Position numbers and translations under genes: made by a program | Notes under the pieces: model-generated | Told to the model about the DNA's origin: nothing | The model's input: the letters and a program-made list of their open reading frames with translations, nothing else | Databases searched by the model: none | Part shown: piece by piece, positions 3,070 through 21,196 of the stretch | Layout: each line of letters opens with the position of its first letter | Position numbering within the stretch: position 1 is the first letter of the stretch | Origin: Terriglobia bacterium | GTDB lineage: Bacteria > Acidobacteriota > Terriglobia > Bryobacterales > Bryobacteraceae | NCBI GenBank assembly: GCA_010084195.1 | Contig: RGPS01000043.1 | Span: forward strand, 1 to 33,134 | Direction: 5' to 3' | DNA: 33,134 bases

Positions 3070-4761
3070 TCAATACCCCTTCGCCGTCGCTTCGGTGCGA
3101 CCGTCCGGAGCGCCTTCCAGCCACTCCCCAAAAATCCGGATTGCGGCAACTTCGGCAATCGAGTTCGTCGTCTTAACAGTGTGGCCGAACTGCTGCAAAA
3201 GGGCAATCGTATCGGGTGAGATAGTGTTCTCCGCTGAAATCAAATCCGGCATCCACTGGTGATGAATCCGCGGTTGGTCCACCGCCTGCTGCATGTTCAT
3301 GCCAAAGTCGATCACATTCAGAATCACTTCCAGCACCGCATTGATGATAGTCGGCCCGCCGGGCGACCCGAGAACCATATACAGTTTCCCGTCCTTCGTG
3401 ACAATCGTCGGCGTCATGGATGATAGCGGCGTTTTGTGTGGAGCCACTGCATTCGCCTCACCCTGAACCAGCCCGAACAGGTTTGGCTTTCCCGGGACGG
3501 CGGCAAAATCGTCCATTTCATTGTTCAGCAGGAAGCCGAGGCCCCTCGCTGTCACTCCCGAACCATAGCCGCCGTTGAGCGTGTAGGTGACGGAAACCGC
3601 ATTTCCTGCCTCATCGACAATGGAGTAGTGGGTGGTTTCCAGGCTCTCATACGGCGCGGGATCACCCTGCTTGATCTCTGCACTCGGTGTCGCTTTTCCC
3701 GGCTGAACAGACTCCGCACGCTTGCGCAGGTACTCCGCATTTACCAGACCCTTCGTCGGGACCTTCACAAAGTCCGGATCCCCGAGCCATTCGGCGCGGT
3801 CCGCAAAATACCGGCGCATGGCCTCCGCTTCATAATGCAGAGAACTGGCCGATCCGGCCCCCCCCTTCGAATAATCGGTCAGCGCCAGCATCCCCATCAT
3901 TTGGAGGATACCGATGCCGCCCGAACTCGGCGGCGGCGCAGTAATCACCCCATAACCTTTGTAGTTGCCTTCCAGCGCCTTGCGCTCGATTGCTTTGTAC
4001 TGCTTCAGATCTTCGAGCGTGATCTCGCCACCGTGAGCCGCCATATCAGCAGCCAACAGACGCGCCGTCTCGCCTTCGTAAAAATCTCTGGCGCCCGTAT
4101 CCCGAATCCGTGCCAGTGTGGCTGCCAGCTCCGGCTGTTTCAGCGTCTCACCCACTTCGTAGAAGGCGCCGTCCCTGAGAAAAATGCGCTTCGACTCGGG
4201 GAACTGCGCCAGCTTTTCACTGGTTATCTTGCCCCGCAGAGCCTGCGAGAGGCCCCAGGAAACAGGGAAACCCTCAGATGCCAGTTCCACGGACGGTTGC
4301 ACCAGAGCCTTCCATGCCGTCTTGCCATATTTCGCATGTGCCAGTTCCATGCCACGAACGGTCCCCGGCACCCCGGAGGCTCGATACCCCAGCTGCGAAT
4401 CCTTCGTAGCCTGGCCCGTCGCCGGATCGAGATACATATTGCGGGAAGCCGAAATCGGCCCCCGTTCCCGGAAATCAATAAACGTGGACGTCCCGTCCGC
4501 CAGGCGCACCAGCATAAAACCACCGCCGCCCAGATTTCCCGCAGAGGGATGCGTCACTGCCAGAGCAAAAGCCACCGCCACGGCGGCATCCACGGCATTC
4601 CCGCCACCCTGTAAGACCTTCACACCCACATCGGTAGCATGCGGCTCACGAGTCACCACCATCGCATGCTTCGCGTGGACGGGCTGGCGAGCAGAAAGGG
4701 CTGCCGTACTTGCCAACAGTAAGCCAGCCCACAGTAAGATTGCTACCCGAGACACCCGCAT
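3070..4761 (-). CDS. ggt: Gamma-glutamyltransferase precursor
   Basis: Exported Ntn-hydrolase that cleaves gamma-glutamyl bonds such as that of glutathione in the periplasm. The 563-residue precursor opens with a signal peptide (about residues 1-24, ending near ALSARQ). The large-subunit signatures GGNAVDAAVAVAFAL and GGGGFMLV follow. The autoprocessing site and catalytic nucleophile is T376 in ETTHYSIVDEAGNAVSVTYT, so the small subunit is about 188 residues. The strongly conserved PLSSMTPTIV and GSPGGPTIINAV segments are present. Length and order match the family. About 70 bases separate its start from the peroxidase gene at 4833. Confidence 0.95.
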   Translation of the reverse strand: MRVSRVAILLWAGLLLASTAALSARQPVHAKHAMVVTREPHATDVGVKVLQGGGNAVDAAVAVAFALAVTHPSAGNLGGGGFMLVRLADGTSTFIDFRERGPISASRNMYLDPATGQATKDSQLGYRASGVPGTVRGMELAHAKYGKTAWKALVQPSVELASEGFPVSWGLSQALRGKITSEKLAQFPESKRIFLRDGAFYEVGETLKQPELAATLARIRDTGARDFYEGETARLLAADMAAHGGEITLEDLKQYKAIERKALEGNYKGYGVITAPPPSSGGIGILQMMGMLALTDYSKGGAGSASSLHYEAEAMRRYFADRAEWLGDPDFVKVPTKGLVNAEYLRKRAESVQPGKATPSAEIKQGDPAPYESLETTHYSIVDEAGNAVSVTYTLNGGYGSGVTARGLGFLLNNEMDDFAAVPGKPNLFGLVQGEANAVAPHKTPLSSMTPTIVTKDGKLYMVLGSPGGPTIINAVLEVILNVIDFGMNMQQAVDQPRIHHQWMPDLISAENTISPDTIALLQQFGHTVKTTNSIAEVAAIRIFGEWLEGAPDGRTEATAKGY

Positions 4762-4832: not shown

Positions 4833-5789
4833 TTAGAGCGCCTTCAGGAACGCCACCAGGTCTCGCCGCTCTTGCGGCGTGATCCCGACATTGAACCTCT
4901 TGTTGTAAAAGTCGATCACCTCTTCCAGCGTGTCTGCCGACCCGTTGTGGAAATAGGGTGCCCGGCTCGCCAGCCCCCGCAGGATTGGACCCTTAAACCG
5001 CCCCACATCCTTCCACAGGCCGCTGATCATCGCCCGGCCCGGATCAGTCGTCACCTTGATCTCCCCCGTGACCTTGTTCTGCAGCTTGATAACCGGCAGA
5101 TACTTCAGGCTCAGGGAATTGGAACTGTCGCTGACACCAATATTCAAAGGAGCAGAAACCGAGTGATTCCCCACGTTCGGAGAATCGTGGCACGTACCGC
5201 AGGTTCCCGGAATTGTCACCGCATTCAGATCATCGTTCAGCCCGGCCACGCCCTTGATCAGAATCGCCTTCGAGTTAAACAAAGCCTGACCTCGGGCAAT
5301 ACTCTCGCGCCTGGAAGCGGCATTGCCATCACCATGCCGATCATCATGGCGATCATCATCCCCGTCATCGTCGTGGCCATGTCCCGTCTGAGGAGTAGCC
5401 GTCCACGTCTGAGGAGTAGCCGTCCACGTCGAAAACAAGTTAAAGATCGCAGGGGTAAAGGCCGTCCGCTGTGGATTGCCACCGAGAGGATCATTGATTC
5501 CGACGAAGAACGCAGGCGTCGTCACGGTGGACAGCACCACAGGCCCACCAGTCGCACCCTTCGCGTTCAGCGGGCCTGCCTTGAAATCAATCGCCTGTGC
5601 CGTGGAAAGGGACATCTCGAAATCGACAATCCCCTGCTGCTGCGCCGGAGTCAGCGCCACGCCCGCCTGGGTATGGCCGTTCGTTGCATCCACTGCCTGG
5701 TGCGCCAAATCCGCCAGAAGATCTGCCGGATTCGTGGCAAACGTAATCTTCTGCGTCCCGGTCTGTGTCGACGATTCCCGGCCATCATC
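4833..5789 (-). CDS. Diheme cytochrome c peroxidase-like protein, 5' truncated
   Basis: C-terminal two thirds of a periplasmic MauG/cytochrome c peroxidase-like protein. The frame is open from an in-frame TGA at 5795; recognisable sequence starts at about 5786 with DGRESS, which in the family follows a first heme domain. A usable start would be the TTG at 5708. One heme site is left (GTCGTCH), then the typical RGLASRAPYFHNGSADTLEEV ending. The first CXXCH domain and the signal peptide are absent, so the product as it stands is probably neither exported nor functional. Before the remaining heme lies an unusual insert: TWTATPQ twice in tandem, then a His/Asp-rich run (HGHDDDGDDDRHDDRHGDG). The missing end coincides with the junction to the plus-strand peroxidase fragment. 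Confidence 0.8.
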   Translation of the reverse strand, partial: DDGRESSTQTGTQKITFATNPADLLADLAHQAVDATNGHTQAGVALTPAQQQGIVDFEMSLSTAQAIDFKAGPLNAKGATGGPVVLSTVTTPAFFVGINDPLGGNPQRTAFTPAIFNLFSTWTATPQTWTATPQTGHGHDDDGDDDRHDDRHGDGNAASRRESIARGQALFNSKAILIKGVAGLNDDLNAVTIPGTCGTCHDSPNVGNHSVSAPLNIGVSDSSNSLSLKYLPVIKLQNKVTGEIKVTTDPGRAMISGLWKDVGRFKGPILRGLASRAPYFHNGSADTLEEVIDFYNKRFNVGITPQERRDLVAFLKAL

Positions 5790-6154
5790 AGTTCATGCAG
5801 GCGGGCTGTATGTCCTGCCACAACGGTCGCGACATCGGAGGCCAAACGTTTCAAAAACCTGGAGCAAAGAAGGCCGCGCCCGACGGCAAAGATGTCGGTC
5901 GAATGGCAGTCACCGGCGACACGGCGGACCGCCTGATGTTTAAGGTGCCATCCCTGCGCAACGTGGAAAAAACCGGCCCCTACTTCCACACTGGTAAAGT
6001 CGCTACAGTGCAGGAAGCCGTACGGCTCATGGGTGAATTCCAACTCGACCGCAAGCTCGACGACCACCAAATCGCTGAAATCGTTGCCTGGCTGAAAACA
6101 CTCACCGGCGAAATCCCGGCGGACTACATCCGCCAGCCCGATTTACCTCAATAG
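5765..6154 (+). CDS. Cytochrome c peroxidase/MauG-type C-terminal fragment, 5' truncated
   Basis: The second heme domain of a diheme peroxidase: GCMSCHNGRDIGGQTFQK at its start, then VPSLRNVEKTGPYFHTGKVATVQEAV and a closing helix (DHQIAEIVAWLKTL). Family members are about 330-400 residues with two hemes; here only about 125 residues and one heme remain. The GTG at 5765 is merely the first possible start: homology begins around 5787 and an in-frame TAA lies at 5744. So the N-terminal heme domain and signal peptide are missing. The stop codon at 6152-6154 runs into the ribosome binding site of the next small gene, so this was the first or an early gene of the plus-strand operon. Confidence 0.75.
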   Translation: MSTIPGHHQFMQAGCMSCHNGRDIGGQTFQKPGAKKAAPDGKDVGRMAVTGDTADRLMFKVPSLRNVEKTGPYFHTGKVATVQEAVRLMGEFQLDRKLDDHQIAEIVAWLKTLTGEIPADYIRQPDLPQ

Positions 6155-6162
6155 GAGATCAC

Positions 6163-6324
6163 ATGCCTGACTGGTTACAAATCATTCTTCTCTTCGCCGC
6201 CTGGTTCGCGCTCCAGCGCTGGATTCTGCCCCGTTTCGGGGTGGCCACCTGAATGTCGAACACCTGCCGTGTCGAGTCTCGACACGATAAAACAACGGCA
6301 CCCAAACCCAATGAATTAAGCTAA
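6163..6324 (+). CDS. Candidate small selenoprotein, one membrane span, UGA at codon 30
   Basis: A tiny gene with a strong ribosome binding site (AGGAGA at 6153-6158, five bases before ATG 6163). The conventional product is 29 residues: MPDWLQ, a hydrophobic helix, then RWILPRFGVAT and TGA at 6250-6252. The same frame stays open after TGA for 23 codons (MSNTCRVESRH...) to TAA at 6322-6324, five bases before the oxidase gene start. Immediately after the UGA lies a perfect 8-bp hairpin with a GUC loop at bacterial SECIS spacing (separate entry). If read as selenocysteine the protein is 53 residues with the pattern U-x4-C just outside the membrane helix, suggesting a redox pair. The alternative is a 29-residue membrane peptide with an ordinary stop. 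I do not recognise a named family. Confidence 0.6.
6268..6286 (+). promoter_or_regulatory. SECIS-like hairpin downstream of in-frame UGA
   Basis: Perfect inverted repeat CGTGTCGA-GTC-TCGACACG: an 8-bp stem with a three-base loop beginning with G. The loop G at 6276 is 23 bases after the last base of the UGA at 6250-6252. Known bacterial SECIS elements need a short stem with a G among the first two loop bases, about 16-37 bases after UGA; the Escherichia coli fdhF loop reads AGGUCU, here AGUCU. The hairpin is followed by ATAAAACAACGG, not a T-tract, so it does not look like an intrinsic terminator. Function is inferred. Confidence 0.55.
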
Positions 6325-6329
6325 ACCAC

Positions 6330-7760
6330 ATGCCCGAGAGTTCGGAAGAGAGCGCGCCGCCTGTCGTCGAGACATCCCTTGTCTACGCCCACGGTCTGGC
6401 AGCTTTCGTCGCGCTCCTCATCTCAGCCTGCTTCGGCTTTTGGGCCGCGGCGGAGCTCGTGGTCCCCCAACTGGCGGGCAGTTCCCCCTGGCTGACCTGG
6501 GGCAGGCTCCGCTACGACCATACCCAGGGGATCATGCTTGGCTGGCTTGGCAACGCCTTCTTTGCCTTCCTCTATCACGCCGTGCCTGTCCTGACGGGTC
6601 GGTCGGTCACCAACCTCAAACTGGGCCAATGGCTCTTTGGCCTCTGGAATTTCATCGTGGTGATCCCGGGTTGGATTCTGGTTCTCGCCGGCTTCAGCCA
6701 GCCCCTCGAATGGGCCGAGTTTCCGCTCGTCATTGACGGTTTTGTCGTCCTCGCCCTCCTCCTCGCCGCCATCCAGTTCCTGCCACCATTCTTTTCGCGC
6801 GGCCTCGAAGATCTCTACGTCTCCAGCTGGTACATCATCGGGGGCCTGGTGTTCACCCTGCTGGCATATCCGATGGGTAACTTCGTCCCGGAACTCCTCC
6901 CCGGAGCCCGCGGTGCCGCCTTCAGCGGCCTCTGGATACATGACGCGGTTGGCCTTTTCGTCACACCCCTCGCGCTGGCCATCATCTACTTCGTGATCCC
7001 CGCCTCCACCCGCAGGCCTATTTACAGCCATTTCCTCTCCATGCTCGGCTTCTGGCTGCTCTTTTTCCTCTACCCTCTGAACGGCACCCACCACTACGTC
7101 TTCTCCGTCATCCCGATGTCCGCCCAAATCGGGGCCATCACCGCCTCCACCCTGCTGGGCGTGGATGTCGTCATCGTGGTCACCAACCTCTTCCTGTCAC
7201 TCCGGGGCACCGGCTGGTTCCCCCGCGATCCCGGCCTGCGCTTCGTCTCGACCGGCACCATGTTCTATCTGGTCGTCAGCCTGCAGGGTTCCCTGCAGGC
7301 GCAGATGTCCATCAACCAGAGCGTGCATTTTTCTGATTGGGTCATCGGGCACTCGCACATGGCCATGCTCGGCTTCGCCAGCTTCGCAGCCCTCGGGGGC
7401 CTCGTCCATGCGTGGCAGCGTATTCCGTGGGCCAGTTACCAAGCGGGCATGATCAACACCGGCTACTGGCTGCTCCTCTCGGGCGTGATTGTGATGGTGG
7501 TTGACTTGACCATCGCGGGTCTGGTCCAGGCCAGTTCCTGGAAGTCCGGCGCACCGTGGCTCGATTCCGTCCGAGCCTCCCAACCTTATTGGGCTATCCG
7601 TATCTTCACCTTCCTGCCCATCGCCGCCGGTTTCTTCATGGTCATGGCGGGCCTGTTTGCCGGTAAACCTGGTGCCGGCCTCAAAGCCATCCGCGACACT
7701 GTTGGGCCCGAACCGGTGGCGGAGATCGCCCCCCGTTTCGCTACCGGAGGCCAGGCGTGA
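6330..7760 (+). CDS. ccoN: cbb3-type cytochrome c oxidase subunit I
   Basis: Heme-copper oxidase catalytic subunit in the inner membrane; reduces O2 with electrons from c-type cytochromes. It has 476 residues and about 12 hydrophobic segments. Candidate heme/copper ligands lie at the expected places: H64 (RYDHTQG, low-spin heme), H204 (WIHDAVGLFVT, CuB), H254-H255 (NGTHHYVFSV, CuB), H341 and H343 (DWVIGHSHMAMLG, the two hemes). The DWxIGHxH motif and HDAVGxF point to the C-family (cbb3), not aa3. No good ribosome binding site precedes ATG 6330; the start is five bases after the end of the extended small ORF, hinting at translational coupling. Its stop overlaps the next start by GTGA. Confidence 0.9.
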   Translation: MPESSEESAPPVVETSLVYAHGLAAFVALLISACFGFWAAAELVVPQLAGSSPWLTWGRLRYDHTQGIMLGWLGNAFFAFLYHAVPVLTGRSVTNLKLGQWLFGLWNFIVVIPGWILVLAGFSQPLEWAEFPLVIDGFVVLALLLAAIQFLPPFFSRGLEDLYVSSWYIIGGLVFTLLAYPMGNFVPELLPGARGAAFSGLWIHDAVGLFVTPLALAIIYFVIPASTRRPIYSHFLSMLGFWLLFFLYPLNGTHHYVFSVIPMSAQIGAITASTLLGVDVVIVVTNLFLSLRGTGWFPRDPGLRFVSTGTMFYLVVSLQGSLQAQMSINQSVHFSDWVIGHSHMAMLGFASFAALGGLVHAWQRIPWASYQAGMINTGYWLLLSGVIVMVVDLTIAGLVQASSWKSGAPWLDSVRASQPYWAIRIFTFLPIAAGFFMVMAGLFAGKPGAGLKAIRDTVGPEPVAEIAPRFATGGQA

Positions 7761-8971
7761 GACGCGTCCTGCGGATGTCGTATCTCGTGGCTGGCCTCGG
7801 AGGCATCGGTTTCTTTGGCATGTCGATGCTGCTCCTCGGCGTCTGGCCCGGTCGCACGCTGGAAGAACAAATCCGCCGAACCCAGCCTGCCTACCCTCTG
7901 CCGCCCACCGCGAGCGAACAACGGGGCCGCCGCATCTACAGCCGGGAAGGCTGCGCGTACTGCCACACCCAGCAAATCCGCTACGTCGGGAGCGACTTCA
8001 AACGCTTCGGAAAAGCCACCCTCGCCTGGGAGACTATCTTCGATTTCCCCCACCTCTGGGGTACCCGGCGCATCGGCCCCGACCTTTCCCGCGAAGCAGG
8101 CATCCGCTCCTCGGACTGGCAACTCTCCCACCTCTACGCTCCTCAGGCTCTGGTGGCCGACTCCGTAATGCCGGCGTTTCCATGGCTTTTCGACGGCGCT
8201 CCCAATCGGCCCCGGCAGGAAGCCCGTGACCTTCTGGATTATCTGGACACTCTGGGACGAAACCGCGCTCTGGCCGGACCCGAGGCTGATGTCCATGCCC
8301 GCGATGCCATGGATTGTTCCGCCGACGAACGACGCTACGCCTTCGGCAAGGGCGAACTCAATGCCAGCCCCGCCATGGCCCGCCGAAGCGGTGAATTCCC
8401 CCTCTTGCCCCGCGTCAAGACTCAGCCAGCCGGACAAGATGTGTACGCGCGTAACTGCGCCGGATGCCACGGTGCGCGTGGCGAAGGGAATGGCAAAGGT
8501 GCCGACGGCCTGAGCCCCAAACCCACCAATTTCACCGAGCAGGAGTATTCGCAGACCCGCCTCAGCCAGGCACTCTGGCATGGCGTGGCAGGCAGCGCCA
8601 TGCCTGCGTGGCGCGACGTCTCACGGCCCGATCTTGCCGCTGTCGCCCAGGTTGTTCGCAGCTTCTCAGCCACACAGGCCGAACCTCAAATCCCCCCCCC
8701 CGTCCTGGAACTCGGAGCCTCCGTGTACAAGGCCCGCTGCGCCCAATGCCACGGGGCCACTGGCGGCGGCGACGGCACCGCAGCCGGTCAGTTCCCCATC
8801 GCACCCACCAACTTCCGGACCCAACGCCCCAGCCTCGCTGCCAGCCTCCGCACCGTCCGGAACGGCATCGAAGGTTCCCCCATGGCCCCGTGGACCAACG
8901 AACTCCGGGAAGATGAGATCAACGCCGTCGCGTACTATGTACGAACTTTCTACACCGGAGATGTCCGGTGA
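7757..8971 (+). CDS. Fused CcoO-CcoP cytochrome c subunit, three hemes
   Basis: Membrane-anchored electron-entry subunit of the cbb3-type oxidase. One N-terminal membrane helix (residues about 8-30) is followed by a CcoO-like domain with heme site C66-H70 (GCAYCHTQQIRYVGSDFKRFG) and candidate axial M139 (SVMPAFPWLF). Two CcoP-like cytochrome c domains follow, with heme sites C234-H238 (NCAGCHGARGEG) and C328-H332 (RCAQCHGATGGG) and candidate axial Met at GSAMPAW and GSPMAPW. In classical cbb3 oxidases these are two separate proteins, CcoO (one heme) and CcoP (two hemes); here all 404 residues are one chain. The GTG start sits in a GTGA overlap with subunit I; the end does the same with the next gene. 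Confidence 0.85.
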   Translation: MRRVLRMSYLVAGLGGIGFFGMSMLLLGVWPGRTLEEQIRRTQPAYPLPPTASEQRGRRIYSREGCAYCHTQQIRYVGSDFKRFGKATLAWETIFDFPHLWGTRRIGPDLSREAGIRSSDWQLSHLYAPQALVADSVMPAFPWLFDGAPNRPRQEARDLLDYLDTLGRNRALAGPEADVHARDAMDCSADERRYAFGKGELNASPAMARRSGEFPLLPRVKTQPAGQDVYARNCAGCHGARGEGNGKGADGLSPKPTNFTEQEYSQTRLSQALWHGVAGSAMPAWRDVSRPDLAAVAQVVRSFSATQAEPQIPPPVLELGASVYKARCAQCHGATGGGDGTAAGQFPIAPTNFRTQRPSLAASLRTVRNGIEGSPMAPWTNELREDEINAVAYYVRTFYTGDVR

Positions 8972-9183
8972 ACGACACAATCACCGGTTACGACATGACG
9001 GCGATGAACATCATCGTCGCCTTCGTTGTGATCCTGTCTGTAGCCTTTCTTACGGCCTGGGCCAGCTCCCCGACGCTCCGGGCGTGGATTGAAAAACCCA
9101 ACCAGAAATTCCAAAACGAAGCTCACCGCTTCGACGAGGCATTGAAAGCATCTACCATGGCCAAAGGAAGGGATACCCTGTGA
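8968..9183 (+). CDS. Small one-span membrane protein, CcoQ-like position
   Basis: A 71-residue protein with one hydrophobic helix (residues about 13-32, NIIVAFVVILSVAFLTAWAS), then a charged cytoplasmic-looking tail. It starts with GTG inside a GTGA overlap with the CcoO-P fusion and ends in another GTGA overlap with the TsdA gene. Size, topology and place match CcoQ, the small stabilising subunit of cbb3 oxidases, but there is no diagnostic motif. An alternative start at the ATG for MTAMNI (codon 10) is possible. Confidence 0.7.
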   Translation: MNDTITGYDMTAMNIIVAFVVILSVAFLTAWASSPTLRAWIEKPNQKFQNEAHRFDEALKASTMAKGRDTL

Positions 9184-10157
9184 AACCAAATTCTATGCGT
9201 GGCCTGGGAACTGTACTGGCGCTATGTATCCTCGTTGGCATCAGCACTGTTGCCGGTACCATCGCTTTCGGTCGCGCGACCCTCCCCGGGCAACCGGCTG
9301 CAGCGCGAACAACACCAGGCAACCGCGATGCTACCGAAGACTACGGCAAGCGCCTCATCGCCCAGACCACGGAATACCTGGGCCCCGACGTTGCCGACCC
9401 CAAAATGCGATTCATGGATAGCCGCCTCGCCTGCGCGTCCTGCCACATCGGCGCGGGTCTGGAACCGGGTAGCCTCAGTCTCGCCACCGCCATCACCCGT
9501 TACCCTCGCATCTCGCCCCGCAGCGCGACCAATGAAACCATTCAGGACCGCATTAACGGCTGCATGATGCGCAGTATGAACGGTCGCGCCCTGGCAGAAA
9601 ACAGCCGGGAAATGGTCGCGATGGTCGCATACCTTCGCTTCCTCGCCAGTCAGGACGCCGAAACGGGGGCCTCACAGAAGAAAGTTCACGAGCCCGCCGC
9701 GTTCAAGACTCCGAATCGCGCTGCGGATCTGAAAAACGGCAGTCTGGTTTTCGAACAGCGCTGCGCCGCCTGCCATGGCCCGGACGGTGCCGGTCTTCCC
9801 GCCGCCCGCGAACTGGTCCAGGGCTTCGTCTTCCCCCCGCTCTGGGGCCCGAACAGCTTCAATGACGGAGCCGGCATGCACCGCGTCCTCACTGCGGCCA
9901 AATTCGTTAAAGCAAAGATGCCCCTCGGTAATGCCGACCTGACCGACGACCAGGCCTTTGACGTCTCCGCGTACCTCAATTCCAGGCCCCGCCCCCACAA
10001 AGAAGGTCTGGAGCAGGATTTCCCCGACCGGGCAAAAAAGCCGATCGACACCGGTTACGGCCCTTACGCGGACCCCTTCTCCGTTGAACAACATACTTTC
10101 GGCCCCTTCGCGCCCATCGAAGCCTTTTATAAGAACGCTAAGAAGCCCGCAAAATAG
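9180..10157 (+). CDS. tsdA: Thiosulfate dehydrogenase (TsdA-like diheme cytochrome c)
   Basis: Periplasmic diheme enzyme that couples two thiosulfate to tetrathionate (or the reverse) and passes electrons to a cytochrome acceptor. The 325-residue protein has an N-terminal hydrophobic segment (signal or anchor, residues 8-30). Heme 1 is C85-H89 (CASCHIG). C128 in RINGCMMRSMNG matches the conserved cysteine that ligates the active-site heme in TsdA enzymes. Heme 2 is C195-H199 (RCAACHGPDGAG) with candidate axial M247 in KAKMPLG. The PLWGPNSFNDGAGM segment is also typical. The GTG start is in a GTGA overlap. Placement directly after the oxidase subunits suggests that the oxidase takes its electrons. 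Confidence 0.85.
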   Translation: MKPNSMRGLGTVLALCILVGISTVAGTIAFGRATLPGQPAAARTTPGNRDATEDYGKRLIAQTTEYLGPDVADPKMRFMDSRLACASCHIGAGLEPGSLSLATAITRYPRISPRSATNETIQDRINGCMMRSMNGRALAENSREMVAMVAYLRFLASQDAETGASQKKVHEPAAFKTPNRAADLKNGSLVFEQRCAACHGPDGAGLPAARELVQGFVFPPLWGPNSFNDGAGMHRVLTAAKFVKAKMPLGNADLTDDQAFDVSAYLNSRPRPHKEGLEQDFPDRAKKPIDTGYGPYADPFSVEQHTFGPFAPIEAFYKNAKKPAK

Positions 10158-10182
10158 CCTAACCTTGAGGAAACTACCCGCC

Positions 10183-10809
10183 ATGAAATTCACCCTGTGC
10201 CTGCTGGCCGCGACCGCCCTTGCCTCAGCCGCCGTCCACCCCGAGATGCTGGTTTCCACCGAATGGCTGGCGCAACATGCCACCGATGCCAACGTCGTCA
10301 TCCTGCACGTAGCCGCCAACCGAACCATCTACGACAACGGCCATATTCCGGGTGCGCGTTTTCTCCCGCTCACGGAACTCGCCGTGACGGTGAACGGGGT
10401 CCACAACGAATTCCCGCCTGTCGCCGACCTGAAAAAGCTTCTCGAAGCCGCCGGAGTCTCTGACGCCTCCCGCGTCATTCTCTACTCCGACGCCGCCGTG
10501 TTGCCCGCCACCCGCACTTACTTTACGCTCGACTATCTTGGCCACGCAGAGAAGACCTCGCTGCTCGATGGCGGTCTCGAAAAGTGGCGCAGTGAAGGCC
10601 GCAGCCTGAGCAAAGAGAGCCCTGCCCCCGGCCCCTCCGGAGTCTTTACCCCGCGCCTCAGGCCGGAGGTACTTGCCCCGCTGGAAACCGTAAAGCAGCT
10701 CTCAGCAAAACCTGCCTCCGCCGCGATGTGCGCATGTACGATGGGTCGCTTTCCGAGTGGAACGCCCGTGGCGGACAAACCGAAAAGTAAAGCGAGCCCA
10801 CCTATATGA
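10183..10809 (+). pseudogene. Rhodanese (thiosulfate sulfurtransferase), out-of-frame internal deletion
   Basis: Exported two-domain rhodanese whose second domain is gutted. It has a signal peptide (MKFTLCLLAATALASAAVHPE). The N-terminal, normally non-catalytic, domain is intact to about residue 160 (DNGHIPGARFLPL, TRTYFTLDYLGH, LLDGGLEKWRSEGR). The linker runs to about 10720, after which the frame yields unrelated residues ending at TGA 10807-10809. In the next frame the true family ending appears from 10725: DVRMYDGSLSEWNARGGQTE, K, then TAA at 10788-10790. About 90-100 codons, including the catalytic cysteine loop of the second domain, are therefore missing and the frame is shifted. A GAGGA at 10167-10171 serves as ribosome binding site. 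Either a real decay event or an assembly collapse. Confidence 0.8.
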
Positions 10810-11507
10810 GCACCCAGCCCACACCGCAGCGCCGTTCCTTCTTCCGCAGCCTGAATAGCCGCCTCGCCGGACTCACGGCCGTCGCCCTCGGCACCGCAGC
10901 CGCCACGCAGGCAAAAAAAACGAAGCCAGCTCCACCATGGGAACCCGCCCGTCATGAAAAAGATGACTGGCTGGAAAAACCGCAGGCCAAACACCGCCTT
11001 GTTTTCGATACCACCAGCGGGAAGGGCTTCGGAGAAGGCCTCGCGTTTGCCGGCAACTACATCCGGGTGAACGGTGTCGATTATGGCCTGCAGGACAGTG
11101 ATTTATCCGTCCTCATCGTCGCCCGGCACCACGCCACGGCATTCGCTTACAACGACGCCATGTGGGCCAAATACGGCGAGCCGCTCGCCGCCCAGGCCGT
11201 CTTTGAGGACCCCAAAACCAAACAGGCGCCGGTGCTCAACGTCTACAATGCCACAGGTTATGGCGGCCTCCTGCCGAGCCGTGGCAGCACCATCGATTCA
11301 GTCACCAAACGAGGCCTTCAGTTCGCGGTATGCGCCACTGCCACCCGCGCCTTTGCCGGAGCCATCGCGAGGAAGGTCGGCGGCAACGCGGACACCATCA
11401 ATAGCGAGTTGATCGCCAATCTCGTCACCAATGCCCGCATGGTGCCGGCCGGCATCGTCGCGGTCAGCCGGGCCCAGGAACGCAGCTACACCGTCGTAAC
11501 CGCCTGA
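10806..11507 (+). CDS. Tat-exported DsrE/DsrF-like sulfur-relay protein
   Basis: A 233-residue protein beginning with a twin-arginine signal (QRRSFFRSLNSRLAGLTAVALG), so it is predicted to be exported folded. The mature part resembles DsrE/DsrF-like proteins: an alpha/beta fold with ARHHATAFAYNDAMW, then LQFAVCATATRAFAG holding the single cysteine of the segment, and the ending VPAGIVAVSRAQERSYT that is typical of this group. Related cytoplasmic proteins relay persulfide sulfur; the role of exported versions is unsettled. The ATG overlaps the stop of the shifted rhodanese frame (ATGA). Position among TsdA and rhodanese supports a sulfur role. Confidence 0.75.
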   Translation: MSTQPTPQRRSFFRSLNSRLAGLTAVALGTAAATQAKKTKPAPPWEPARHEKDDWLEKPQAKHRLVFDTTSGKGFGEGLAFAGNYIRVNGVDYGLQDSDLSVLIVARHHATAFAYNDAMWAKYGEPLAAQAVFEDPKTKQAPVLNVYNATGYGGLLPSRGSTIDSVTKRGLQFAVCATATRAFAGAIARKVGGNADTINSELIANLVTNARMVPAGIVAVSRAQERSYTVVTA

Positions 11508-11529
11508 CATCAAAACAGAGGGAATAAAA

Positions 11530-12081
11530 ATGAAAACAACACTGCTCAGCATTGCCCTGGGACTTTTGGCTTCTATGGCCCAGGCGCAGGTCACCAAATC
11601 CACCGTCGAAGGTATCGGCAGCTTCGCCCAGGTAGAAACCACAGTCGCCTGCAGTGGAGCCATCAAGCCCACCTCCGTGGCCGGAATCAAGAAAATGGGC
11701 TTCGCGTCCATCATCAATCTCCGTGTAGCCAGCGAAGCCGGTTCCGACATGGAAGCGGAAGCGGCCGCCGCCAAAGACGCCGGCATCCACTATTTCCACC
11801 TCCCCTTCGCCGGCGGCGCCCCCGACCCGGCAGTAGCCGACCGTTTCCTCGAAACCATTCAGACGGCAGGCAATCAGCCCGCTTTCATTCACTGCGCGAG
11901 CGGTAACCGCGCCGCCGCCATGTGGCTCATCAAGAGAGTTCTCATCGATAAGTGGGAACTCGACAAGGCTACAGAAGAAGCGGCACAGCTGGGCCTCACC
12001 AGCGCCCCGCTAAAGAAATTCGCACTGGACTTCGTCGAAGCCCACAAACCAACAGTGTGGATATCGTCCGGGCTTTCGTAA
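11530..12081 (+). CDS. Exported DUF442/BLH-type phosphatase-like protein, 3' end replaced
   Basis: A 183-residue protein with a signal peptide (MKTTLLSIALGLLASMAQAQ) and a dual-specificity-phosphatase-like fold of the beta-lactamase-hydrolase-like (TIGR01244/DUF442) type. The signature loop is HCASGNRAAAMWLIKR (Cys and Arg of HCx5R). This domain is often linked to persulfide dioxygenases and sulfide metabolism, which fits the block. The ribosome binding site is AGAGGGA before ATG 11530. The natural domain ends at about FALDFVEAHK (12048); the last ten codons are read from the antisense of the neighbouring cupin gene, so only the stop codon and perhaps a few residues were lost at the junction. 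Confidence 0.75.
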   Translation: MKTTLLSIALGLLASMAQAQVTKSTVEGIGSFAQVETTVACSGAIKPTSVAGIKKMGFASIINLRVASEAGSDMEAEAAAAKDAGIHYFHLPFAGGAPDPAVADRFLETIQTAGNQPAFIHCASGNRAAAMWLIKRVLIDKWELDKATEEAAQLGLTSAPLKKFALDFVEAHKPTVWISSGLS

Positions 12082-12610: not shown

Positions 12611-13317
12611 ATGAATGTCCGCCGCCTCGTGCCGTCCGTGAACCGCCTCCTCCTTCCTATGCCTTCCGTCATGTTGGCTTCCCTCCTGTTGGCGACCGGC
12701 CTGCAGCAACCGGTTCACGCGGCAGATACAGACCTCGCAAAGTTCAGGCGCATCGAACCGCAGTACATCGCAGCGCTGGGCGACCCCGGGGCCACTTCCG
12801 GCACCGGCGCGCAGGCATGGGGCCTATGGAGCCAGGACCCGGGTCCGCGCGGTTGCAAGCTGGACCGCTACCCGGAATTGAAGGCGTCCGGCGTGGCACC
12901 GTCACGGTGGAAATTCGACGATAAGGACTGGTGGCGCTCCGGTTGACTCACAGAGCGGAACACGGCCTGATCATGGAGAAGCCGACCTTTCCGCTGCCCG
13001 CCGGCAAATACCTCGTCACCGGCGACCGCGAGGTGACAAGCGTGCTGACAGTTCATCCCCCGGACAAGTCAGGCAAAGACAAGGCCGGCAATCAGTGGTG
13101 GGAACTCGCCGACGGCGCGACCCTCTACGATGTGACCCATCTCGGATGCCGTTCCGCGCGCTACACCCCGGCGGCAATCAACAACCCGTGCACACCCTCG
13201 AACGTTCGGACCACTGGTTTTCCGGTGTATCCAGGCGCGGACATGCCCATCGTGAACGGCTGCCGCAAGCAGGACTACACAGTTCTCATCGCCGTTGGCC
13301 TGCCCGCCAAGCAGTGA
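12611..13317 (+). pseudogene. Conserved exported protein interrupted by a frameshift
   Basis: One gene split into two frames. The first part starts at ATG 12611 with a signal peptide (ending near QQPVHAAD), reads YIAALGDPGATSGTGAQAWG and KFDDKDWW, then hits TGA at 12944-12946. The second part, in another frame, continues as AEHGLIMEKPTFPLPAGKYL, GDREVTSVLTVHPPD, WELADGATLYDVTHLGCRSA and ends at 13317. The break lies between about 12930 and 12955. The two parts fit as one domain of about 230 residues of unknown function (a conserved exported protein; GATLYDVTHLxCRSARYTPA is its best conserved part). A one-base insertion or two-base loss explains it; a sequencing error cannot be excluded. Confidence 0.7.
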
Positions 13318-18230: not shown

Positions 18231-18242
18231 ATCCTGAAACAG

Positions 18243-18393
18243 ACGGGAGAGACCAGCTTCATCGCTGGCGCCGAAGGAGCAACCGCCCCGGAAACTCTCA
18301 GGCAAAAGGACCGTCACACATCAACATCTGGAGAGTAGCGGGCCGCGAGGTCCGTTCGCCGACGGAATAACGTTCTCAGGCACAAGCGACAGA
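18243..18393 (+). promoter_or_regulatory. Tandem glycine riboswitch (gcvT motif)
   Basis: Two glycine aptamers in a row, 20 bases before gcvP. Aptamer 1 (about 18243-18312) has CGGGAGAGACC, the core GGCGCCGAAGGAGCAA, then AAACTCTCAGGCAAAAGGACC. Aptamer 2 (about 18328-18393) has TCTGGAGAG, the core CGCCGACGGAATAA, then GTTCTCAGGCACAAGCGACAG. The conserved P1 strand and CTCAGGCA-AA core in both copies are diagnostic. Such riboswitches usually turn on glycine cleavage genes when glycine is in excess. Between aptamer 2 and the start codon there is no terminator hairpin, so control at translation initiation is likely (inference). Confidence 0.9.
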
Positions 18394-18412: not shown

Positions 18413-21196
18413 ATGTCCTCCGCCCGCTCCGCCGCAGCCGCCACCACCTTTGAGCGCCGCCACATCGGCCCCTCACCTTCTGACATTGAAGCCATGCTCC
18501 AGGTCGTCGGGGCCACTTCCCTCGAAGACCTGATGAGCCAGACCCTGCCTGCCTCCATCCGGCAGAAGGCCCCGCTCACCACCGGCCCGGCCATGTCCGA
18601 AACCGAAGCCCTCGACTTTCTGCGCGGCATCGCGGCCCAAAACCAAGTTCACACGTCCCTCATCGGCCAGGGTTACTACGGCACCCTCGTCCCCGGCGTC
18701 ATCCAGCGCAACATCCTCGAGAATCCAGCCTGGTACACCGCCTACACGCCCTACCAGCCCGAAATCAGCCAGGGCCGCCTCGAAGCCCTCCTCAACTACC
18801 AGACGATGATCTGCGACCTCACCGGTCTCGACGTCGCCAACGCCTCCATGCTCGACGAAGGCACCGCGGCCGCAGAAGCCATGGCCGTCGCGCAGCGCTC
18901 CGCCAAATCCCGCTCGACGCGCTTCTTCGTCGATAGTGCCGTTCACCCCCAGACCCTCGCCGTGCTCCAAACCCGCGCTGAACCCGTCGTTGGGGACGCC
19001 CTCCCCGAAGGCGATTTCTTCGGCGCTCTTTTCCAATACCCCGACACCTTCGGCGACATCCGCGACTTCCGTGCCGCCATCCAGGGAATTCAGGCCCAAG
19101 GTGGCCTCGCCATCCTCGCCAGCGACCCCCTCGCCCTCACCCTCCTCACGCCTCCCGGCGAACTCGGTGCCGATATCGCCCTCGGCTCCGCCCAGCGCTT
19201 CGGCGTCCCGATGGGCTGCGGCGGGCCCCACGCGGCGTATCTTGCCGTGAAGGACGCCTATAAACGGTCCCTCCCCGGGCGCCTCGTCGGCGTCTCCATC
19301 GATTCCAAAGGCAAGCCCGCTTTCCGTCTGGCCCTCCAGACCCGCGAACAACACATCCGCCGCGAAAAGGCGACGTCCAACATCTGCACGGCCCAGGTCC
19401 TGCTCGCCGTGATGGCCTCCATGTATGCCGTCTACCACGGTCCGGAAGGCCTGGTCTTCATCGCACAGCAGATCCGCCGCCGCACCGCGAATGTGGCCGC
19501 CGGCCTCCGGGCTCTCGGTTTCACACTCCGTAACACGGCCTTCTTCGATACCCTGACGGTGAATGTCGGCGCGCAGCAAGCCGCCATCCTCGCCCGTGCC
19601 GACGCTGCGAAACTTAACCTCCGCATCGTTGACGCCGAGACCCTGGGCATCTCTCTCGACGAAACCTCCACGCCGCAGACCGTCTCCGCGATCCTTACAG
19701 CCTTTGGCGCAACCTCTGCCCCGGCAGAAACCGAAGCCCCTGCCCTGCCCCAGGCCCTGGCCCGCAACTCCGAATTCCTCACTCACCCCGTCTTCCACAA
19801 GTACCGTTCGGAAACGGAAATGCTGCGATACCTCCGCAAGCTCAGCGACCGTGACCTCGCCCTCGACCGCGCCATGATCCCGCTCGGCTCCTGCACCATG
19901 AAGCTGAACGCGACCTCAGAAATGCTGCCCGTCACCTGGCCCGAGTTCGGCAACATGCATCCCTTCGCACCGAAGGAGCAGGCCGCCGGGTACCACGCCA
20001 TGTTCCAGGATCTGGAAGAAAAGCTCTGCCAGATCACCGGCTATGACGCCATCCTGCTGCAGCCCAATTCCGGCGCGCAGGGTGAGTACGCGGGGCTCCT
20101 CGCGATCCGCGCGTATCACCTCAGCCGCAACGAGGGCCACCGCAACATTTGCCTCATCCCGTCCTCCGCCCACGGCACCAATCCAGCCTCCGCGCACATG
20201 GTGGGCATGGACGTGGTCGTTGTCGCGTGTGACGCCAAAGGCAACGTTGATCTCGCCGACCTGAAAGCCAAGGCCGCACAGCACGGCGACAAACTCGCCG
20301 CCCTGATGGTCACCTACCCCTCCACCCACGGCGTCTTCGAAAACGAGATCAGCGAAATCTGCGCCACCATCCACCAGTACGGTGGTCAGGTTTATCTCGA
20401 TGGCGCGAATCTCAACGCCCAGGTTGGCCTCGCCCAACCCGGCAAGTACGGTGCCGATGTCTCGCACCTCAACCTGCACAAGACCTTCTGCATTCCCCAC
20501 GGTGGCGGCGGCCCGGGCATGGGTCCCATCGGCGTGCGCGCCCACCTCGCCCCCTTCCTGCCGCAACACGTTTCCGCAGCCCCTTACGGCTCCGCGTCTA
20601 TCCTGCCCATCTCGTACATGTACATCCTGATGATGGGCAGCGAAGGCCTCCGCAAAGCGACCGAAGTCGCCATCCTCTCGGCCAACTACATCGCCGTGCG
20701 GCTCGATTCGTCCTTTCCGCTCCTCTACAAGAACGACAACGGGCGCATCGCGCATGAGTGCATCATCGATCCTCGCCCCCTGAAAGACCTATGTGGCGTC
20801 TCAGTCGACGACATCGCCAAGCGCCTGATCGACTACGGCTTCCACGCCCCCACGATGAGTTTCCCTGTCCCCGGAACCCTCATGATCGAACCCACAGAAT
20901 CGGAATCAAAGGCCGAACTCGACCGCTTCTGCGACGCCATGATCGCCATCCGCAAGGAAATTGCCGATGTGGAAAACGGTCGCTTCCCCATCACCGATTC
21001 CCCGCTCCGCCACGCCCCCCACACGGTCTACGACCTGGTGGAAGACTGGACCCGCCCGTATCCGAAAGAGGAAGGCTGTTTCCCGTCAGGGTCAGCAAAG
21101 ATGGACAAATATTGGTGCCCCGTCGGTCGCATCGACAACGCCTACGGAGACCGCAACCTCGTCTGCTCCTGCCCGCCTCTCGAAGAATACAAGTAG
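18413..21196 (+). CDS. gcvP: Glycine dehydrogenase (decarboxylating), P-protein, full-length
   Basis: PLP enzyme of the glycine cleavage system; decarboxylates glycine and passes the aminomethyl group to the lipoyl H-protein. The 927-residue single chain joins the two halves that are separate (GcvPA/GcvPB) in many other bacteria: [17 protein letters not shown] at the start, [40 protein letters not shown], then the catalytic half with the glycine-rich [13 protein letters not shown] and the PLP lysine K690 in [18 protein letters not shown]. All key segments are present. It is not followed by gcvT or gcvH; the next gene is convergent, the two stop codons abutting as TAGCTA (21194-21199). It is controlled by the tandem glycine riboswitch in its leader. 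Confidence 0.97.

Follow-up and report, generated by a model that had tools for sequence, protein, structure and literature searches.

A widespread uncatalogued family of putative single-helix membrane selenoproteins, frequent in uncultured Acidobacteriota

Introduction

The stretch of acidobacterial DNA analyzed here (33,134 nucleotides; hereafter, the window) contains a very short gene at 6163-6324 (+) that is interrupted by an in-frame UGA, closely followed by a hairpin. The question raised by this locus is whether the UGA terminates a 29-residue peptide or specifies selenocysteine (Sec) in a 53-residue protein. The frame begins with ATG at 6163 and runs for 29 codons up to TGA at 6250-6252, beyond which 23 open codons lead to TAA at 6322-6324. 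The translation, supported by homologs and their alignment, is MPDWLQIILLFAAWFALQRWILPRFGVAT-UGA-MSNTCRVESRHDKTTAPKPNELS-stop, with the putative Sec at codon 30. A Shine-Dalgarno sequence, AGGAGA, can be read directly at 6153-6158 (+) and is overlapped by the stop (6152-6154) of the upstream gene, a piece of a MauG-type peroxidase; the ATG lies 8 bases past that stop, and 5 bases separate the end of the gene from a CcoN-like gene (ATG at 6330). Each of these elements of the original prediction, namely the ribosome binding site, the 29-codon frame, the TGA, the 23 open codons and the adjoining next gene, was confirmed in the sequence and its translation. The warning that short read-through frames can occur by chance was also well founded, given that the 33-kb window contains, under loose rules, 11 UGA-interrupted frames in which a stem of 7 bp or longer occupies the position of a SECIS, the gene at 6163-6324 included. 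Because of this number, the observation taken alone is within chance expectation, and it is the relatives that decide.

Relatives of the gene and the residue at position 30

In the family sample (237 genomes), which was analyzed by a read-through search of whole genomes with hits counted by hand, a match at E 0.0017 or better contains an in-frame TGA in 92 genomes and no stop at all in 4 genomes. At the 30 family loci that were read out, position 30 is TGA in 26 and Cys in the 4 stop-free ones; the remaining matches in the family were judged by stop count alone. The phylum sample (396 genomes; profile search, cut-off E 0.001) gave matches in 86 genomes; an in-frame TGA is contained in 80 of these matches, and the other 6 are stop-free. 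One of the latter is the Cys form of G191, and the other five stop at profile position 28 or 29, short of position 30. None of the strong matches in the read-through searches of the 237 family and 396 phylum genomes carries TAA or TAG alone. Finally, 127 relatives were confirmed in a scan of named genomes, the retrieval pattern of which fixed part of the motif N-terminal of the UGA, and among the best 80 of the 127, position 30 is UGA in 76, Cys in 4 (L052, L057, L092, and L107) and UAA or UAG in none. The assignment of 6250-6252 (+) as a candidate Sec codon is based on this UGA/Cys pattern in the relatives together with the whole-genome searches.

By their labels, which come from records of metagenome-assembled genomes and may in some cases be wrong, 58 of these best 80 of 127 relatives belong to Acidobacteriota and the other 22 to Deltaproteobacteria (5), Verrucomicrobia (4), Myxococcales/Myxococcota (3), Rokubacteria (2), Spirochaetes (2) and, once each, KSB1, Bacteroidetes, Pirellulaceae, SAR324, Calditrichaceae, and 'bacterium'. 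The KSB1 locus (L079) and the Bacteroidetes locus (L081) are almost identical and share their neighbors, so that one of the two labels is probably wrong.

In an alignment of 27 family members assembled without motif selection (A1), W20, L22, P23, G26, T29, U/C30, and Cys35 are invariant. W20, L22, and G26 are also retained in all 87 unique members collected with a search expression that fixed P23, T29, U/C at position 30 and a later Cys, and that allowed a few alternatives at the places of W20, L22, and G26. The aligned motif W-[VI]-L-P-x-x-G-[VI]-x-T occupies codons 20-29 (6220-6249, +), just N-terminal of the putative Sec, and the size of the proteins is mostly some 45-80 residues. Several family genomes, such as G220, G009, and G223, contain two strong matches each, and locus L070 has two gene copies approximately 2 kb apart (Sec codons at 4120 and 6088), near DUF302 genes. 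The search for homologs with Cys or UGA at this position that had been proposed as a check has thus yielded both kinds, with constraint extending downstream, and on sequence evidence the gene at 6163-6324 is a member of a widespread uncatalogued family, not one lone candidate.

Coding constraint on both sides of the UGA

The ratio of nonsynonymous to synonymous change (pN/pS) was computed for 681 pairs (60-97% alike) among 76 unique UGA members with the U-x4-C spacing, leaving out codon 35 since the search expression had demanded Cys there. The ratio is 0.43 for codons 2-19, 0.23 for codons 20-29, 0.44 for codons 31-34, 0.79 for codons 36-41, and 0.94 for codons 42-48, these being descriptive figures because related sequences yield interdependent pairs. 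With four members lacking Cys35 added, the values for the same stretches are 0.43, 0.23, 0.45, 0.79, and 0.91. The near identity of the ratios for codons 31-34 and 2-19 argues for equal selection on the protein on either side of the UGA, and the last codons appear to be nearly free of constraint. Synonymous change amounts to 0.35 per site in codons 36-41 vs. 0.55-0.70 in the other multi-codon stretches, a reduction by about half that we attribute to an RNA structure overlapping the reading frame at this place. As judged from these substitution patterns, the comparisons show that the UGA at codon 30 is decoded and is not a stop.

The hairpin as a SECIS element

The candidate SECIS at 6268-6286 (+), to which the fold, covariation and reduced synonymous change all point, consists of 8 perfect pairs (6268-6275 with 6279-6286) closed by a GUC loop (6276-6278) and spans codons 36-41. 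The distance of 23 bases from the UGA originally given for the hairpin holds for the loop; the stem itself begins 15 nt past the UGA. The 25-nt hairpin folds with -11.7 kcal/mol (z -3.3). The published bacterial SECIS model (PMC13188914) calls for a loop of 3-9 nt with G in the first two positions, a stem of 4-16 bp, a distance of 16-37 nt from the UGA and a minimum free energy of -7.5 or lower; the window hairpin, with its 8 bp, GUC loop, 23 nt and the above energy, falls within this range in fold and spacing alike, as had been predicted. It also resembles the in-gene SECIS of the E. coli FdhF type as described there, where the UGA is followed by a hairpin with a loop starting with G within 16-37 nt (PMC13188914). 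No Rfam RNA reaches its gathering score over the gene, with weak matches of other kinds below the cut-off.

Covariation was assessed in 50 members (49 distinct) hand-picked from the 76, mainly for the same hairpin register, a choice that favors structure: in this set, 96.8% of cells are paired, changes on both sides are seen in 5 of 7 pairs, and the covariation score is 0.539, compared with 0.234 after shuffling and no more than 0.189 when the alignment is slid. When the whole set of 76 is used, which comprises 74 distinct sequences, 77% of cells are paired over the 8 pairs vs. 24-44% in slid positions. An ungapped stem of at least 6 bp in the 14-37 nt range is present in 68 of 82 UGA members vs. 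10% of shuffles; such a stem was not found in that range in the other 14, although in six of them a stem of 5 bp carries a 3-nt loop that starts with G at the usual distance of 23 nt. Together, these comparisons show that a predicted hairpin inside the coding sequence, right after the UGA, is conserved via compensatory changes.

A different hairpin, with the core GCUCGGUCGAGC or nearly so, is present in several members outside the phylum (L079, L081, L082, L095, L114, L123, and L125). In L126, a CUCGGUCGAG hairpin that resembles that of other members outside the phylum lies some 45 nt or more past the UGA, beyond the published SECIS range. Among the Cys genes, those of L023 and L024 retain 6 of 7 stem pairs and the other three just 4; the retention in L023 and L024 suggests a recent replacement of Sec by Cys in these two.

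Selenocysteine machinery in the host and its association with the gene

Insertion of Sec in bacteria requires selA, selB, selC, and selD. The host genome (628 contigs, 94.4% complete) carries tRNA-Sec with the anticodon UCA, SelA (482 bits) and SelD (357 bits), the gene for the latter itself containing an in-frame TGA. Close to the end of a contig lies a partial SelB-like GTPase, which scores 231 bits (cut-off, 242) and covers the N-terminal positions 1-236 of the 581 in the profile; the C-terminal domain of SelB was not found in the 628 contigs. The originally suggested check for the four genes therefore came out positive for tRNA-Sec, SelA, and SelD, and SelB is represented by a sub-cut-off N-terminal fragment only. 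Both refuting conditions set out in the original prediction turned out the opposite way: the homologs retain the UGA and show constraint past it, and the host encodes Sec machinery, with SelB as this fragment. Given its in-frame TGA, the host SelD (G000:C102:38204-39127, locus L139) is probably a selenoprotein as well.

In the phylum sample, 75 of the 80 TGA-form genomes possess selA vs. 173 of the 310 without the gene (p 1.3e-11, uncorrected for shared ancestry). The link is weak in the family sample, with selA in 83 of 92 TGA-form genomes vs. 105 of 141 without a match (p 0.004, likewise uncorrected). The TGA form occurs without detected selA in 9 of 92 family and 5 of 80 phylum genomes; one genome of this kind, G282, is listed as 100% complete. 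Outside the phylum, selA was found in 19 of 22 genomes, those without it being L107 (Cys form), L099, and L116 (UGA forms). Of the 5 genomes with the Cys form, 4 lack selA: 3 of the 4 from the family and the Myxococcales genome of L107.

Under the established scheme of bacterial Sec insertion, SelB would bind the hairpin and bring Sec-tRNA-Sec to the UGA. Were the UGA an ordinary stop instead, the product would be a 29-residue membrane peptide, and the hairpin an intergenic terminator or processing signal. Such a reading draws on the ease with which hairpin-bearing short read-through frames arise by chance (the 11 in the window under loose rules), and it becomes highly improbable given that codons 31-34 are constrained like codons 2-19, that among the best 80 of the 127 named relatives the UGA is replaced by Cys in 4 and by UAA or UAG in none, that the hairpin sits within codons 36-41 and covaries, and that the TGA form is associated with selA. 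A stop followed by a terminator hairpin was rejected on the covariation and the coding constraint past the UGA. Translation of the UGA without Sec, either as Trp via a suppressor tRNA or a code change or through programmed read-through, would account for the few TGA-form genomes in which selA was not detected. The only amino acid seen in place of the UGA is Cys, not Trp, the hairpin has SECIS geometry and covaries, the host possesses tRNA-Sec, SelA, and SelD, and selA is lacking in 4 of the 5 genomes with the Cys form, all of which make decoding without Sec scarcely credible. We consider Sec insertion the preferred reading: the family is almost certainly a real selenoprotein family, and the gene at 6163-6324 very probably encodes a selenoprotein with Sec inserted at its UGA.

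Protein architecture and the role of Cys35

AlphaFold2 predicts a single, presumably membrane-spanning helix for codons 3-25 (6169-6237, +), followed by a low-confidence tail; the mean pLDDT is 66, with block means of 87 and 83 in residues 1-20. The mean net charge in the 87 unique members is -0.8 for the first five residues vs. +2.5 for residues 19-41, and the C-side is more positive than the N-side in 87 of 87. Given the positive-inside rule, this charge distribution suggests that Sec probably lies at the cytosolic face of the membrane. The protein would be a single membrane helix with the N-terminus out and the C-terminus in, and Sec, within the segment W-x-L-P-x-x-G-x-T-U, would be located at the membrane surface on the cytosolic side; in most cases a Cys follows five residues later.

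This Cys is Cys35 in the window gene (6265-6267, +), a candidate resolving Cys separated from Sec by four residues (MSNT), that is, U-x4-C. Among the best 80 of the 127 named relatives, a Cys is present within the next few residues after position 30 in 76, and the other 4 (L099, L100, L104, and L128) have lost Cys35 and kept the UGA. Because of these four, the putative Sec is the constant residue, and Cys35 is a common yet dispensable partner. The redox pair of Sec and Cys that had been envisaged stands insofar as Cys35 is usual and falls as a constant unit, Cys being absent in 4 of these best 80 of 127, so the notion of a strict pair was dropped.

Genomic neighborhoods and possible function

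In the window, the gene is preceded by the C-terminal piece of a MauG/MbnH-type di-heme cytochrome c peroxidase (5765-6154, +), identified by domain similarity and by comparison with the sister contig L049, which carries a longer relative of 343 aa at the equivalent place. This piece and another one at 4833-5708 (-) are opposed, both C-terminal and MauG/MbnH-like, and meet near 5710-5765, a boundary that represents either a rearrangement or an assembly junction. Downstream, the selenoprotein gene is the first of a run that comprises, by domain similarity, a cbb3/CcoN-like haem-copper oxidase subunit I (6330-7760, +), followed by a CcoO/CcoP-like fused cytochrome c subunit (7757-8971, +), a SoxA/TsdA-type cytochrome c (9180-10157, +), a rhodanese (within 9958-10809, +), a TetH-like protein (10806-11507, +; weak match) and a BLH-type phosphatase (11530-12081, +); the part of the run at 9180-12081 (+) is a sulfur-oxidation-like cluster.

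Neighborhoods were surveyed at 77 loci (76 named ones and the window) with a home-made, composition-scored ORF caller. The commonest neighbor cluster, with a DUF302 representative, is present at 10 loci, and 10 of its 11 occurrences adjoin the gene. Pfam matches among 99 operon-type neighbors, a set that omits the window's own neighbors, those of at least 600 residues and any beyond the second on each side, include DUF302 (9), MauG peroxidase (4), thioredoxin (4), pyridine-nucleotide disulfide oxidoreductase (3), and sulfur transport (2). A thioredoxin reductase (416 bits) is the adjoining next gene in L120, and its cluster-mate comes after the gene in L121; the nearest upstream ORF in L107, the Myxococcales Cys form in which selA was not detected, is a thioredoxin-cluster gene. 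Transporters of the RND, ABC, or cation-efflux types adjoin the gene in several relatives; in L101 and L119, the downstream genes encode a YgaP-like membrane protein, an outer-membrane efflux protein, a probable HlyD-type protein and an RND-type permease (identified for L119). An operon-like neighbor is absent upstream at 38, downstream at 43 and on both sides at 25 of the 77 loci, contig ends included. Given that neighbors vary greatly and that these 25 loci lack any operon-like one, the functional reading rests on a minority of contexts.

With this context, the best guess for the function, held tentatively, is a thioredoxin-linked role in redox or sulfur metabolism. Sec would cycle as a selenol reduced by thioredoxin or thioredoxin reductase, and the protein would probably serve in handling oxidants or reactive sulfur species beside the neighboring respiratory and thiol systems. 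It is conceivable, and we give this a similarly guarded place, that the selenoprotein is not thioredoxin-linked and is instead a subunit that binds a metal, a metalloid or a thiol compound, or an accessory of the haem-copper oxidase. The position of the gene between the MauG-type piece and the CcoN-like subunit, repeated in L049, and the RND, ABC, or cation-efflux transporters next to it in several relatives are in keeping with a binding or accessory role. Against it, of the 77 loci only the window and L049 were found to have an oxidase subunit (a two-member cluster) next to the gene, and the efflux contexts are a minority too. Returning to the thioredoxin-linked role, a broader proposal, which is somewhat doubtful, is that this single-pass family, distributed over Acidobacteriota and, by the labels, at least eight other phylum-level groups, represents a selenium-based membrane relay and a counterpart of SelK/SelS in layout, which would link thioredoxin, DUF302 proteins, MauG-type peroxidases and sulfur-oxidation or efflux systems.

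Comparison with known selenoproteins

Scans of 27 members found nothing better than E 0.03 in Pfam and nothing better than E 0.11 in NCBIfam, with no match to the Tso models of the latter; no relative was found in PDB at E 1 or better. The plasmid collection contains weak matches only (best E 0.6), and a further search of it gave none. Table 1 of a 2026 catalogue of 119 prokaryotic families has no corresponding entry by name or motif, although some of its entries state no motif (PMC13188914). Membership in a known family was thus rejected with respect to Pfam, NCBIfam, PDB, and the entries of that table, and the suggestion that the protein is new agrees with these results. A literature search, the reach of which ended short of most subscription papers and all bioRxiv preprints, found no earlier description. 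The mode of Sec insertion is standard, and what is new is the protein family and its build.

The product of 6163-6324 is a membrane microprotein without the thioredoxin fold, in contrast to the FdhF-type bacterial selenoproteins, with which it shares the type of SECIS, and without detected similarity to the catalogued families. Eukaryotic SelK and SelS are small single-pass membrane proteins with Sec located past the helix in a cytosolic tail; the likeness is in layout alone and does not imply homology, theirs being eukaryotic proteins with another Sec insertion system. The YeeE/YedE, SO_0444, and mercuric-transport-like selenoproteins are multi-pass. These also are bacterial membrane selenoproteins, listed as a thiosulfate transporter, an efflux transporter and a mercuric-transport-like type with the motifs GUxSG, UxC, or C/SxxU (PMC13188914, Table 1), whereas the present product combines U-x4-C with one predicted helix. 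Redox selenoproteins of the thioredoxin fold likewise differ, having UxxC/CxxU within that fold rather than U-x4-C behind a single predicted helix. The Tso selenoproteins (Haft and Tolstoy, 2025, as reported in the catalogue, PMC13188914) are similarly uncharacterized. Near L119, an ArsR-type regulator bears a weak resemblance to TsoR (57 bits vs. a cut-off of 115).

The family described here is a putative addition to the known selenoproteins; it is common among uncultured Acidobacteriota, and its architecture, one helix without a thioredoxin fold and with Sec at the membrane surface, is unusual. Annotation and homology-filtered searches would miss this family because the open reading frame has 29 codons and Cys homologs are few. 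More generally, very short selenoproteins appear to be under-counted, since the UGA leaves an open reading frame below the usual annotation limits and since methods of the deep-Sep type require that the annotated proteins include either a Sec homolog already known or two or more Cys homologs. The Cys forms, 4 of 5 of them in genomes without selA, constitute a natural series for what selenium gains over sulfur at the membrane.

Other features of the window

The gene for a small secreted-looking protein at 12611-13317 (+) seems to be interrupted near 12944, where a frame change and not a Sec codon would account for the break; this is possibly the other UGA-broken small gene mentioned in the original prediction. 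A glycine riboswitch (67.9 bits) is located at 18234-18323 (+), with the gene for the glycine cleavage P-protein downstream at 18413.
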